Below, piece by piece: positions 14,932 through 62,778 of a stretch of DNA of 64,000 nucleotides; position 1 is the first letter of the stretch, and each line of letters starts with the position of its first letter. Origin of the DNA: Marinobacter subterrani. GTDB lineage: Bacteria > Pseudomonadota > Gammaproteobacteria > Pseudomonadales > Oleiphilaceae. Position numbers and translations under genes: made by a program. The DNA is taken from the NCBI RefSeq assembly GCF_001045555.1, contig NZ_LFBU01000001.1:2914001-2978000 (forward strand). The letters run 5' to 3'. The notes under the pieces are model-generated. The model worked only from the letters and a program-made list of their open reading frames with translations, did not search any database and was not told the DNA's origin.

Positions 14932-15041
14932 GAGCTGGTGGGGCGTCCCTTCCGAAACACGCCCGTGAATACATCCCTGTAGGGCTTGGCTGCAGCCATC
15001 CATGGCTGCAGACAGTTTCGGAAGGGACGCCCCACCAGCTC
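14932..15041 (-). repeat. Hairpin element A (dispersed family, tandem GGA-loop core)
   Basis: Perfect 27-bp inverted arms (14932-14958 and 15015-15041) flank a 56-nt core. On the minus strand the core folds into two further hairpins. One has a 9-bp stem with loop TGGA (14990-15011). The other is TACA-GGGA-TGTA (14970-14981). The core continues ATTCACGGGCGT on that strand. The same core, with different arm sequences, occurs at 15905, 40299, 60180 and 62671. It splits trpD from trpC; its GGA strand is antisense to the trp transcript. The long stem could also affect read-through. Confidence 0.95.
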
Positions 15042-15065
15042 TCGCATACTTTTTACGGGCCTGAT

Positions 15066-15887
15066 ATGACTGACAGACATTTGGATAAGACACCCACGAT
15101 TCTTCGGAAAATTGTTGATCGGAAGTGGGAAGAAATCGACGAGCGCAAGACCAAGGTCAGCATCGACGACTTAAAGGCCAAGGCGGGAGACCAGCCGACG
15201 GCGCGAGGCTTCGCGAATGCCTTGCGTACGCGGATTGAAATCGGAACGCCCGCCGTCATCGCCGAAATCAAGAAGGCCTCGCCCAGCAAGGGCATCCTGC
15301 GGGATCCGTTCGAGCCGGCCGCTATTGCCGAGAGTTACGAGAACGGCGGCGCCGCCTGTTTGTCCGTGCTCACCGACAAAGACTTCTTCCAGGGCCACGA
15401 GGACTATCTGGTCGCCGCCCGCAACGCCTGTAGCCTGCCGGTGATCCGAAAGGACTTCATGGTCGCGCCCTACCAGGTTTACGAAAGCCGGGCCATCGGC
15501 GCCGACTGCATCCTGCTGATCGCCGCCTGCCTGACCAGGGACCAGATGCAGGAACTGGAAGGCATTGCCCATGAAATCGGGCTGGATGTGTTGGTCGAAG
15601 TGCACGATGGTGAAGAACTGGACGATGCATTGACGCTGACGACCCCTCTGGTCGGCATCAACAACCGGAACCTGCACACCTTCGAGGTGTCGCTGGACAC
15701 CACCTTTGATCTGCACGAGCGGATTTCCGCAGACCGCCTGACCATCACCGAAAGCGGCATCATGACCAGGAATGATGTGGGCGCCATGACCGGCCGTGGG
15801 ATTTACGGTTTCCTGGTGGGGGAATCTTTCATGCGGGCTGAAGAACCAGGTCAGAAATTACGGGAGCTGTTTTTCCCCGCAGGCTGA
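15066..15887 (+). CDS. trpC: Indole-3-glycerol-phosphate synthase
   Basis: Cyclises CdRP to indole-3-glycerol phosphate, the fourth step of tryptophan synthesis. Monofunctional TIM barrel of 273 residues without a fused TrpF. Motifs are [54 protein letters not shown] and GFLVGESFM. No clear ribosome site is seen before ATG 15066, so translation initiation may be weak or the start slightly different. It is bounded on both sides by hairpin elements A and B. Confidence 0.96.
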
Positions 15888-15904
15888 CTCCTTCAGATGG
15901 GGTG

Positions 15905-16009
15905 AGTCGGCGGGCAAGGCTTGCCAAAATCGTGCGGAGCCAGGGATGGCGGAGCCGAGCGTACAAGGATGTATTCACAGCGTATTTTGGCAAGCCTTGC
16001 CCGCCGACT
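15905..16009 (+). repeat. Hairpin element B (dispersed family, exact CsrA-consensus loop)
   Basis: Perfect 26-bp arms (15905-15930 and 15984-16009) flank a 53-nt core. On the plus strand, hairpin 1 is GCCA-GGGA-TGGC (15939-15950). Hairpin 2 is GTACAAGGATGTA (15961-15973), which matches the CsrA SELEX consensus RUACARGGAUGU at every position. The two GGA triplets are 20 nt apart. It lies between the convergent ends of trpC and the DUF4202 gene. GATGGGGTG (15896-15904) and CACCCATC (16016-16023) can extend the stem with bulges. It may also act as a trpC 3' terminator. Confidence 0.95.
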
Positions 16010-16021
16010 TACATGCACCCA

Positions 16022-60289: not shown

Positions 60290-60348
60290 ATCAAAGCTCA
60301 CTCGGGCACATAGGAAAATGAACAACCAAAATAACAAGAGATGAATGC

Positions 60349-60984
60349 ATGAACGATCACCCAGCCTCTCCAAACCCTCACGAATTCACCAACCTGGACC
60401 GCCGAAGCTTTCTGAAAACCGGGCTGGGCGGCGCCCTGTTTCTGGGCACTGTCAGTGTCACCGCCGGCCTGAGCGGTTGCGCCACGCAGCCGGCCGGCCG
60501 GTTGAGTGCCGTCGGCACCCGGATGGACGCCAGCTATCAGTTCCGTTTCCTGACCCGGGATGACATCACCCTGTTCGAGGCGCTGTTGCCGGCGATCATT
60601 GGCCCTGGCCTGCCGGAACAGCCGCAGGCCCGGAATATCGCCATCGCCGGGACCATTGAACGGATTGATGCCGGCATCCACAAGTTTGGCCCGGCCAACC
60701 AGAAGGAGTTGCGCCGGTTGTTTGATCTGCTGAACTTCGGGCTGACCCGGATAACCGTTGCCCGGGTCTGGCCCAGCTGGCCGAATGTGACTACCGCGGA
60801 AGCGGACGCGTTTCTGGAGCGCTGGCGCACCAGCGGTATCGGGCTGTTCAACAATGGCTACATTGCCCTGACCAAGATCAGCAACGTGGCGTTTTATGGC
60901 TACCGGGATTTCTGGCATCTGTCCGGCTATCCGGGGCCGCCACAGCATGCAGTCGATGCCCTGCCTCAATTCAAAAACGCCTGA
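60349..60984 (+). CDS. Tat-exported lipoprotein, small-subunit partner of the GMC oxidoreductase
   Basis: Protein of 211 residues with a twin-arginine signal (RRSFLK near 18) and a hydrophobic stretch ending in lipobox LSGC (Cys near 44), so probably a folded, lipid-anchored periplasmic protein. The rest is helical and resembles gluconate-2-dehydrogenase-subunit-3-type small subunits (ITLFEALLPAIIGPGL). It lies 23 nt before the GMC gene, so it probably escorts and anchors that enzyme. Confidence 0.82.
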   Translation: MNDHPASPNPHEFTNLDRRSFLKTGLGGALFLGTVSVTAGLSGCATQPAGRLSAVGTRMDASYQFRFLTRDDITLFEALLPAIIGPGLPEQPQARNIAIAGTIERIDAGIHKFGPANQKELRRLFDLLNFGLTRITVARVWPSWPNVTTAEADAFLERWRTSGIGLFNNGYIALTKISNVAFYGYRDFWHLSGYPGPPQHAVDALPQFKNA

Positions 60985-61007
60985 TTGCCAGCGTGACGGA
61001 GCCAACC

Positions 61008-62597
61008 ATGTCATTAACTGATCGTATTGCCCAGGGCCTGGAATCGGGCTGGAAAGTTACCGATGGCGCCAGCCTGACCGACAACCTGACTGCCGAAGCA
61101 GATGTCGTGGTCATCGGCACCGGCGCCGGGGGTGGTACCACCGCGGAAATTCTTGCTAAAAGCGGGCTGTCGGTCATTCTCGTGGAAGAAGGCCGGCTGT
61201 ATTACCAGAAAGATTTCAAAATGGACGAGCTGACCTCCTACGCCAACCTGTACCAGGAAGGCATGAGCCGGGTGACCCGGGACGGTGCCATCGCCATTCT
61301 TCAGGGCCGCTGCGTGGGCGGCTCGACGACTGTGAACTGGACCAGCAGCTTTCGCACCCCCGAGCCCACACTGAATTACTGGGCCGAACACTTCGGCCTG
61401 GAGGCACTCCGGCCGGATGCCATGGCCCCCTGGTTCGAAGGCCGGGAAGAGCGCCACTCCATGGCACCCTGGCAGATGGACCCGAACGTTAACAACGACA
61501 TTCTGCGCCAGGGCTGCGAGAAGTTGGGTTACAGCTGGCACATCATTCCCCGCAACGTCAAAGGCTGCTGGAACCTGGGTTACTGCGGTGTCGGTTGTCC
61601 CACCAACGCCAAGCAGGGCGCGCTGCTGACCACCATCCCCGGTGCCCTGGACAACAACGCCCACCTGTTCCACAGTCTGAGAGCTGACCGACTGGTGATG
61701 AACCAGGACCGGATCGACCACCTCCAGGCCACCGCCTTCGCCAGCGACGGCATTACCCCAACGGGGATCCAGGTGACCCTGAAAGCCAGACACTTCGTGG
61801 TCGCCGCCAGCGCCATCGGCTCACCGGGCCTGCTGTTGCGATCCGACATTCCGGATCCTTACGGGCGCCTCGGCAAACGCTCGTTCATTCATCCGGTCAA
61901 CGCCTCCGTGGCCCAGATGCCCCAACGGGTCGACCCCTTCTACGGTGCCCCCCAGTCGATCTATTCCGACGAGTTCAACTTCCGCAATGGCGTCGACGGC
62001 CCGGTCGGCTACAAACTGGAAGTGCCACCCCTGCACCCGGCCATGTCCAGCGGCGTCATCCCCGGGCACGGCGAAGCCCAGCTCAACAACATGGCCGGCC
62101 TGCCCCACATGCAGTCCGTTATCGCCCTGCTCCGGGACGGCTTCCACCCTGAAAGCCCCGGCGGTACCGTCTCATTACGCGACGATGGCAGCCCGGTACT
62201 GGACTATCCGGTGACGGACTATCTCTGGAGCGGCTTGCGCAACGCCTTCCACACCATGGCCGAAATCCAGTTCGCCGCCGGCGCGGAAAAAGTCCGCCTG
62301 ATGCACCTGGATTCCGACTGGTACAGCTCACTGGCCGAGGCCAAAGCCGCCATCAACAAGCTCCCCATGGAGCCCCACCGGGTCCGCCTGTTCACCGCCC
62401 ACCAGATGGGTGGCTGCGGTATGGGCAGCAACCCGCAGAACTCCGTGGTCAATGGCTTCGGCGAACACCACCAGGTCGGCAACCTCAGCATCCACGACGC
62501 CTCGGTGTTCCCCACCAGCATCGGTGCCAACCCCCAGTTGTCGGTCTATGCTCTCGCGGCAAGAAACAGTGCCAGACTGGCGCAAAGACTAGGATAA
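61008..62597 (+). CDS. GMC-family FAD oxidoreductase
   Basis: Flavoprotein alcohol or sugar dehydrogenase of about 529 residues. The FAD Rossmann motif is VVIGTGAGGGTTAEILAKSG near residue 33, with VEEG binding ribose. GRCVGGSTTVNW is the GMC signature. YCGVGCPTNAK carries three cysteines. The C-terminal block is HQMGGCGMGSNPQ and ANPQLSVYALAARN. It has no signal, so export would be by hitchhiking on the Tat partner. ATG 61008, after GGAG, is preferred over GTG 60993. Substrate is probably an alcohol whose aldehyde is used by the ALDH (inference). Confidence 0.9.
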   Translation: MSLTDRIAQGLESGWKVTDGASLTDNLTAEADVVVIGTGAGGGTTAEILAKSGLSVILVEEGRLYYQKDFKMDELTSYANLYQEGMSRVTRDGAIAILQGRCVGGSTTVNWTSSFRTPEPTLNYWAEHFGLEALRPDAMAPWFEGREERHSMAPWQMDPNVNNDILRQGCEKLGYSWHIIPRNVKGCWNLGYCGVGCPTNAKQGALLTTIPGALDNNAHLFHSLRADRLVMNQDRIDHLQATAFASDGITPTGIQVTLKARHFVVAASAIGSPGLLLRSDIPDPYGRLGKRSFIHPVNASVAQMPQRVDPFYGAPQSIYSDEFNFRNGVDGPVGYKLEVPPLHPAMSSGVIPGHGEAQLNNMAGLPHMQSVIALLRDGFHPESPGGTVSLRDDGSPVLDYPVTDYLWSGLRNAFHTMAEIQFAAGAEKVRLMHLDSDWYSSLAEAKAAINKLPMEPHRVRLFTAHQMGGCGMGSNPQNSVVNGFGEHHQVGNLSIHDASVFPTSIGANPQLSVYALAARNSARLAQRLG

Positions 62598-62670
62598 CAA
62601 CCGTTCCAAATTGTTGGTTAACGGGCCTGGTGGACGCTCTCATTCGGGGAGACTGGCGCGGAGATCGACT

Positions 62671-62778
62671 GGCCGGCTGGAAGGGTTGATCCGGGAATGT
62701 GCGAAGCCATGGATGGCTTCGCTCAAGCGCACATGGATGTGCTCGTAGCGTTTCCCGGATCAACCCTTTCAGCCGGCC
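62671..62778 (+). repeat. Hairpin element E (dispersed family, tandem GGA-loop core)
   Basis: 27-bp arms (62671-62697 and 62752-62778) with one G-A position that becomes a G-U pair, flanking a 54-nt core. On the plus strand hairpin 1 is a 9-bp stem with loop TGGA (62701-62722). Hairpin 2 is GCACA-TGGA-TGTGC (62729-62742). GGA triplets are 21 nt apart. An outer pair, CCTGGTGGACG (62626-62636) and CGTCACCAGG (62789-62798), is nearly complementary. It lies between the GMC gene and coaD, sense to both. Confidence 0.93.

Follow-up and report, generated by a model that had tools for sequence, protein, structure and literature searches.

A high-copy intergenic hairpin repeat of Marinobacter subterrani with paired ANGGA loops resembling CsrA/RsmA-binding sites

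RNAs bound by CsrA/RsmA present GGA in the loops of stem-loops, with two sites lying 10–60 nt apart, and sponge RNAs with GGA loops (CsrB, CsrC, RsmX, RsmY and RsmZ) titrate the protein. REP, BIME and REPIN sequences are high-copy intergenic hairpins that frequently occur as inverted doublets, with a RAYT transposase associated with REPINs and BIMEs. The repeat described here, from Marinobacter subterrani, has features of both. Like the sponge RNAs, it has GGA loops that are predicted to be able to titrate CsrA/RsmA, but it carries two ANGGA per unit (three in 23 copies) in more than 100 units, and has no upstream promoter signal, no terminator signature and, within the window (the whole 64,000-nt stretch of DNA analysed), no match to any Rfam family at gathering score. 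Like REP, BIME and REPIN sequences, it is high-copy, intergenic and found in inverted close pairs; unlike the short palindromes of shared sequence that make up REPINs and BIMEs, its arms are long and unshared between copies, and it has a structured core, conserved loops and strand-specific wobble. Across 19 genomes, that of M. subterrani among them, canonical RsmZ (RF00166) gave four weak matches and none over the cut-off; this says little, because sub-threshold matches were also obtained in 4 of 14 control genomes.

Judged from sequence and predicted fold, the nearest catalogued family is TwoAYGGAY RNA (Rfam RF01731), published in 2010 (PMC2864571), for which CsrA binding was independently proposed in 2014. 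Both have an outer stem and two hairpins with GGA in their loops. RF01731 matches that exceed the threshold in other gammaproteobacteria also come in multiple copies (nine candidates scored per genome), and their close pairs likewise lie back to back (5/5, from 20 loci). The second hairpin, by contrast, is unlike that of the copies here. All nine RF01731 matches in the genome fall on copies of the repeat and, like the two in the window, span model positions 1–168; copy A scored 37.1 bits, copy B 21.9 bits and the best genome copy 42.6 bits, so that none reached the gathering score of 43 bits, and none did so in 18 core-pattern loci of other genomes. Loss of GGA from otherwise conserved stems, named in the original prediction as evidence against CsrA binding, was not seen in this genome but was seen in part among the RF01731-type relatives, with CGA in the second loop of 11 of the 25 match copies inspected.

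All five hairpins predicted in the window were present at their positions (Table 1) and shared a core of 52–56 nt. The predicted GGA spacing and the matches to the CsrA consensus (12/12 in B, 11/12 in A and C) also held. The arms are fully paired or contain one G·U pair each, and RNA folding of the five hairpins against 200 dinucleotide shuffles gave z-scores of -8.1 to -12.2, with no shuffle equally stable. The GGA strand can be folded as a three-way junction, in which a long closing stem formed by the arms is joined to two short ANGGA-loop hairpins, 20–22 nt apart. The copies thus have the CsrA-type layout of paired sites with GGA in the loop, but the picture of two small hairpins per core is idealised, since the minimum free energy (MFE) folds of A, C, D and E deviate from it. 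In A and C the second hairpin is a short stem atop a lower GC helix with a bulge, while in D and E the second loop region folds otherwise.

Table 1. Positions of the five hairpin copies within the window
Copy	Whole element	Strand	Arms	Core
A	14932..15041	(-)	27 bp; 14932-14958 + 15015-15041	14959-15014
B	15902..16012	(+)	29 bp; 15902-15930 + 15984-16012	15931-15983
C	40299..40409	(+)	28 bp	40327-40381
D	60180..60289	(-)	29 bp	60209-60260
E	62670..62779	(+)	28 bp	62698-62751

The five hairpins are members of a high-copy dispersed intergenic repeat. The original prediction of a family of five therefore named true members but understated its size, as the same genome holds at least 111 copies. Another count gave 110, itself a lower bound because scoring covered 150 of the 1538 first-look candidates. 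A 17-nt core pattern matched the genome 27 times, as against no match for the same pattern read backwards. A covariance model matched copies A–E and nothing else in the window, with E-values of 1.6e-20 to 5.1e-17 that are not independent, because the 28 copies used to build the model included all five. According to gene calls made by a purpose-written codon-score script, which also underlie the direction counts below, 111/111 copies are intergenic.

Across the genome, two ANGGA were kept 23–25 nt apart in 107/111 copies. ANGGA occurred at least twice in 109 copies; in the first ANGGA of these, N was T in 61, G in 37, A in 10 and C in one. As regards the AYGGAY of both TwoAYGGAY loops, a pyrimidine occupied the N position in only 62 of the 109 first and 65 of the 109 second ANGGA. 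Covariation in the core stems was assessed in 83 cores, using a structure drawn from the same sequences as those tested. There were 408 two-sided changed cells versus 127 in shuffles, and the covariation score was 0.560 versus 0.191 in shuffles and at most 0.162 in slid controls; two of the five measures scarcely rose above shuffles (double-change pairs, 19 versus 16.6; further pair types, 55 versus 51.2). Compensated pair differences between copies were found in arms and core stems alike. Each copy has arm sequence of its own, mean identity between copies being 0.502 versus the 0.506 expected from column composition.

The arms also differ in how the two strands tolerate mismatches. Among 2658 inner arm pairs from 111 copies, G·U accounted for 49 of the non-Watson-Crick pairs on the GGA strand, A·C for 2 and other mismatches for 25, an excess of G·U over A·C with a binomial p of 1.2e-12. 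The same bias was seen in copies whose GGA strand runs antisense to the genes on both sides (11 G·U, 0 A·C) and in 87 copies with arms of at least 20 bp from core-pattern loci, Marinobacter included (75 G·U versus 19 A·C). Because G·U far exceeds A·C, the core stems co-vary and two ANGGA are kept while N and the stems vary, the GGA strand looks to be under selection as a folded strand. The wobble asymmetry would equally result from selection on single-stranded DNA. Strand-specific wobble counts offer a cheap and reusable test of which strand is selected in hairpin repeats.

The orientation of the GGA strand was independent of gene direction across the 111 copies, and the downstream gene lay in sense in only 54 of them (31 ++, 23 -+). 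Within the window, the GGA strand was predicted to be sense to neighbouring genes only in B and E, which was borne out, with B sense to its upstream gene only. Copy A is flanked by trpD-like and trpC-like genes, its GGA strand being antisense to both, and copy B is preceded by the trpC-like gene. On one side of copy C lies a gene encoding amino-acid kinase and acetyltransferase domains and on the other a gene for an M20 peptidase, and the GGA strand is antisense to both; copy D has an aldehyde dehydrogenase gene upstream, to which its GGA strand is antisense, and copy E, which is preceded by a GMC oxidoreductase gene, is sense to the neighbours on both sides. The Pfam-matched neighbours of the window copies have no function in common. 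Because GGA strands disregard gene direction in this way, a simple cis role is unlikely, and 5'-UTR regulation was rejected. A promoter of the GGA strand's own was likewise rejected, as sigma-70-like scores upstream of the 111 copies showed no excess reading into that strand and were equal in both directions (p 0.99). T-tracts (at least 5 T among the 8 nt directly beyond the hairpin) followed 0/111 copies in sense and 1/111 in antisense, against a background of 3/222.

The genome encodes the putative partner: PF02599 (CsrA) matches it twice, one match coinciding with a CsrA-like reading frame of 65 residues, and this CsrA is canonical in appearance. In a survey of gammaproteobacterial genomes in which 19 candidates were scored per genome and csrA presence was paired with element presence by hand, 49 of 50 element-bearing genomes had a csrA match versus 192 of 226 others (Fisher p 0.009, relatedness ignored). 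This association is weak because csrA is near-universal in the class, and one genome with 9 elements had no csrA match.

Copy numbers per genome ranged from 3 to 141 in 18 congeners and reached at least 147 in one of these when searched alone. In genome G247, 150 of 150 scored candidates matched, again a lower bound, and many scores were identical. Carriage by plasmids or phages was rejected, as copy B had no plasmid match and the core pattern occurred in only two viral contigs, with weak model matches of 37–38 bits. The comparison of orthologous loci (34 comparisons, with loci and copies reused) is biased towards presence, because the named loci, at least 120, were fetched for holding a core pattern; its 'no core' class was set by a strict pattern, and one locus, L093, holds a decayed copy despite falling in that class.

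Copies lying up to ~450 nt apart were arranged back to back in 17/17 pairs in this genome and 22/22 in one congener. In 108 of the at least 120 named loci (all but L136–L147), with pairs hand-picked from tables, the proportion was 19/22; in one methanotroph genome it was only 1/8. Neither gene direction, spacer sequence nor promoter scores offered an explanation, and by eye the spacers of the 17 close pairs had no family-wide sequence in common. In genome G087, the core was inverted between near-identical flanks in 2 of the 9 copies with assignable orientation. The repeat was not described in the titles and abstract openings of the literature searched, and its copy-specific arms, inverted cores, back-to-back rule and genome-wide spread are apparently new.

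We give roughly even weight to the interpretation that this is a dispersed repeat whose predicted RNA docks one CsrA/RsmA dimer, acting mainly as a distributed sink. The GGA strand would putatively be transcribed by read-through, with no promoter of its own, its two ANGGA loops would clamp a single dimer, and the 111 or more copies would jointly form a CsrA sink that tracks total transcription, the local effect being to tie CsrA to untranslated RNA. Hairpin-templated correction may help to keep the arms perfect and also flip the core between them. The repeat may spread as a non-autonomous element, so that its copy number would vary widely among congeners. The original reading as paired CsrA/RsmA sites thus gains from the ANGGA pairs, core covariation, GGA-strand wobble, a host CsrA, the csrA matches in 49 of 50 element-bearing genomes and the separate proposal of CsrA binding by TwoAYGGAY, and is weakened by the loss of GGA in RF01731-type copies; CsrA binding leaves the back-to-back pairing unaccounted for. 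The main rival, which we consider rather unlikely, is a mobile hairpin of single-stranded DNA (REPIN/BIME- or attC-like), in which a trans-supplied enzyme recognises the folded GGA strand and any resemblance to CsrA sites is a coincidence. The strong copy-number variation within the genus, the uniform G247 matches, close pairs reminiscent of REP doublets and the flipped cores of G087 favour this rival, and single-stranded DNA is compatible with strand-specific pairing. However, conservation located in loop ANGGA, with N and the stems free, is what would be expected of an RNA that clamps a protein, and the unshared spacers and the plasmid and viral results also speak against mobility of this kind.

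The suggestion that the hairpins are regulated terminators was not sustained, because T-tracts are missing, and copy A sits amid the trpD- and trpC-like genes. A bidirectional terminator, or a REP-like stabiliser of mRNA 3' ends, would suit the intergenic position of every copy and the high stability of the window hairpins, yet it is improbable given these same T-tract counts, a GGA direction unrelated to genes and conserved loops that a terminator would not need. Still harder to credit is a 5'-UTR switch, i.e. a CsrA-controlled leader of neighbouring genes: RF01731 is typed Cis-reg in Rfam and some copies are sense to and upstream of genes, but about half lack a downstream gene in sense and the window neighbours share no function. 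A wider form of the CsrA-sink interpretation is possible, if somewhat doubtful, in which the repeat is a self-propagating genome-wide array of more than 100 putative CsrA-docking RNA modules, with the strand selected as RNA whatever the gene direction, stems rewritten in concert and back-to-back polarity, i.e. a distributed titration system travelling as a repeat. If the CsrA-sink interpretation is right, free CsrA in many gammaproteobacteria would be buffered by at least 100 dispersed repeats, beyond one or two sRNAs; with 3 to more than 140 repeats between congeners, a global post-transcriptional regulator would therefore be tuned by copy number, and one class of intergenic hairpin repeats would have a function.

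In the 3' flanks of the repeat, promoter-like scores were higher for transcription into the antisense strand (mean 4.13 versus 2.77, p 3.5e-6). A weak motif, CWCCNAA, was also seen, with 29 occurrences starting within the first 10 nt of the 3' flank across the 111 copies.

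All five long hairpins of the original prediction (copies A–E) were found in the window at the positions predicted for them, each with 27–29 bp arms around a 52–56 nt core and each folding far more stably than shuffled sequences (z −8.1 to −12.2). A 17-nt core pattern matched the genome 27 times, while the reversed pattern gave no match. A covariance model (R1) trained on 28 copies, A–E among them, had these five as its only matches in the window. Across the M. subterrani genome, R1 identified at least 110 copies with the best 150 of 1538 candidates scored, and a rescan of fetched genome stretches gave 111 after removal of 14 weak rows out of 125 (13 antisense to listed copies and one other hairpin). 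The repeat is genuine and widespread, and it is a variant of an already known candidate RNA.

Positions of the copies and associated sequence features
Feature	Position	Description
Copy A	window 14932–15041	flanked by genes with trpD and trpC Pfam domains
Copy B	window 15905–16009	
Copy C	window 40299–40409	
Copy D	window 60180–60289	
Copy E	window 62671–62778	
Inverted repeat GTAGGTCGGATTAG...TAATCCGACCTAC	M. subterrani C1:1215328, 1965918, 2053469, 2911359	between paired copies
Mirror-image core	L095:4661-4750	Marinobacter algicola; order hairpin 2 – hairpin 1 – hairpin 2
Interrupted copy	L167:6781-6963	insert of ~80 nt splits the second hairpin loop
Second kind of long hairpin	L194:5814-5906	core about GTCTGAGCGAAGCGAGTT
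Second kind of long hairpin	L048	core about GTCTGAGCGAAGCGAGTT; replaces the repeat at the ortholog of the C1:3231328 locus

RNA from the strand carrying the two ANGGA loops (the GGA strand) can fold as a three-way junction, in which the arms form the closing stem below hairpins 1 and 2. In an alignment of 83 cores drawn from M. subterrani and other genomes, 83.4% of cells were paired compared with 62.6% in shuffles, and 408 cells differed on both sides of the pair, compared with 127 in shuffles. Covariation scored 0.560 against 0.191 in shuffles and at most 0.162 in slid controls; double-change pairs (19 versus 16.6) and further pair types (55 versus 51.2) were barely above shuffles. In hairpin 2 the upper three pairs were intact in 99.6% of cells; pairing in hairpin 1 was 71.1%, lower because two registers share the alignment. 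Both ANGGA motifs were retained in 107 of the 111 copies at a start-to-start distance of 23–25 nt. In the 109 copies that carry two or more ANGGA motifs, the variable base of the first was T 61, G 37, A 10 and C 1, and that of the second T 59, G 38, A 6 and C 6; a third motif occurred in 23 copies. The mirror-image core of M. algicola looks like the product of a strand switch.

The arms themselves differed in all 111 copies, and their mean pairwise identity (0.502) was in line with that expected from column composition (0.506), which indicates no shared arm sequence beyond a common inner trend. Nevertheless, 2582 of 2658 inner arm pairs were Watson–Crick. The 76 remaining pairs, read on the GGA strand, comprised 49 G·U, 2 A·C and 25 others, and rescoring the arms with equal penalties left the wobble counts unchanged. 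Since a G·U on one strand is an A·C on the other, this asymmetry identifies the GGA strand as the one under selection, whether in the form of RNA or of single-stranded DNA. The G·U:A·C ratio was 11:0 where both neighbouring genes run opposite to the GGA strand (--), 14:1 where both run with it (++), and 16:0 and 8:1 in the +- and -+ contexts (upstream, downstream gene); in loci fetched from other genomes for holding a core pattern it was 75:19 (87 copies with arms of at least 20 bp, Marinobacter included). Hairpin-templated correction is a known process that could produce both perfect arms and core inversions, but it gives no account of the G·U excess. That the GGA strand is selected as the folded strand is well supported by sequence.

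The RsmA/RsmE consensus is CANGGANG, and the ANGGA loops of the repeat are similar to it. These loops are best read as putative docking sites for CsrA, and the repeat may act as a distributed CsrA sink. CsrA of M. subterrani has a canonical appearance. A survey with a core model (R2; strict filters, best 19 candidates scored per genome) placed the repeat in at least 50 of 276 gammaproteobacterial genomes and at least 45 of 216 genera. A csrA match was present in 241 of the 276 genomes, including 49 of 50 with the repeat versus 192 of 226 without it (Fisher p 0.009, a hand comparison ignoring relatedness). The exception, G203, had nine repeat matches and is 98% complete in 270 contigs; its lack of a csrA match may be an assembly gap.

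The nearest Rfam family, TwoAYGGAY (RF01731; cut-off 43 bits), gave full-length, sub-cut-off matches to copies A (37.1 bits) and B (21.9 bits) in a scan of 14900–16050 at a threshold below the cut-off, and a best score of 42.6 bits in the genome. A stricter search of 276 genomes gave no match in M. subterrani and matches above cut-off in 11, in five of which all nine best candidates scored were matched (at least nine copies). Three of 13 RF01731 genomes (G091, G221, G284) also carried the R2 repeat. The second loop of 25 RF01731 copies, read by eye, had GGA in 14 and CGA in 11; the CGA loops argue against a role of this branch as a strictly two-site CsrA ligand. TwoAYGGAY is listed from human gut, gammaproteobacteria and Clostridiales and graded as probably RNA and probably not cis-regulatory (PMC2864571), and is proposed to bind CsrA (PMC4333381). 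Excerpts of an Alcanivorax sRNA study (PMC9788540) and a CsrA modelling study (PMC12889724) contain no description of the repeat, and titles and abstract openings yielded no account of it as a dispersed element.

By simple gene calls all 111 copies were intergenic (one extends 7 nt into a predicted gene), and their direction was independent of the genes (31 --, 31 ++, 26 +-, 23 -+). Among the 77 unpaired copies, the 3' neighbour was the closer gene in 49 and the 5' neighbour in 28. No common function was evident among window neighbours with Pfam matches. The hairpins showed no T-tract signature, and no promoter signal was seen upstream of copies; promoter scores in the 3' flank were directed into the antisense strand. 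This flank held a weak strand-specific motif, CWCCNAA (29 occurrences over the 111 copies, with the start no more than 10 nt from the arm), and GGCTNGG (11, starting at 10–19 nt).

Copies were present in all 18 congeners searched, at 3 to 141 per genome (147 when the congener G010 was searched alone). Compared with orthologous loci, preselected for holding the core, unpaired copies, in 34 comparisons, had the same orientation in 16, were flipped in nine and lacked the core by a strict pattern in nine. Ten of 19 loci fetched from G087 matched the pattern; of nine orientable copies with near-identical flanks, seven pointed one way and two were turned around. In G087 the repeat is amplified on many short contigs with near-identical flanks, alongside other small hairpins. 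The repeat also occurs in MAG loci titled Nitratireductor (L062) and Klebsiella pneumoniae (L097); at least the former label is probably a binning error, as L062 matches M. subterrani at 89%.

The strangest feature of the repeat is its pairing rule. All 17 M. subterrani pairs less than 400 nt apart were back to back (minus-then-plus), so that the two GGA strands face each other with their 5' sides across a 38–199 nt spacer, and orientation was kept in 8/8 comparisons of paired copies with orthologous loci. The same polarity held for 22 of 22 close pairs in G010, for 5/5 RF01731 pairs (27 matches in 20 fetched loci) and for 19 of 22 in the fetched loci (108 of 120 scanned). Six of those 22 were in Marinobacter, the others including Stenotrophomonas, Arenimonas, Halopseudomonas, Haliea and Oleispira; the three pairs that broke the rule came from a locus of Methylotuvimicrobium and from two loci of MAGs (L130, L038, L097). 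G247 departs from the rule: it carries 150 copies or more, many of which score identically, and of its eight close pairs seven were same-strand tandems and one was minus-then-plus. M. subterrani copies 400–6000 nt apart followed no clear rule (11 +-, 9 -+, 6 ++, 3 --). By eye, the 17 spacers had nothing in common but a GTAGG-type inverted repeat in four, which is probably a REP-type element.
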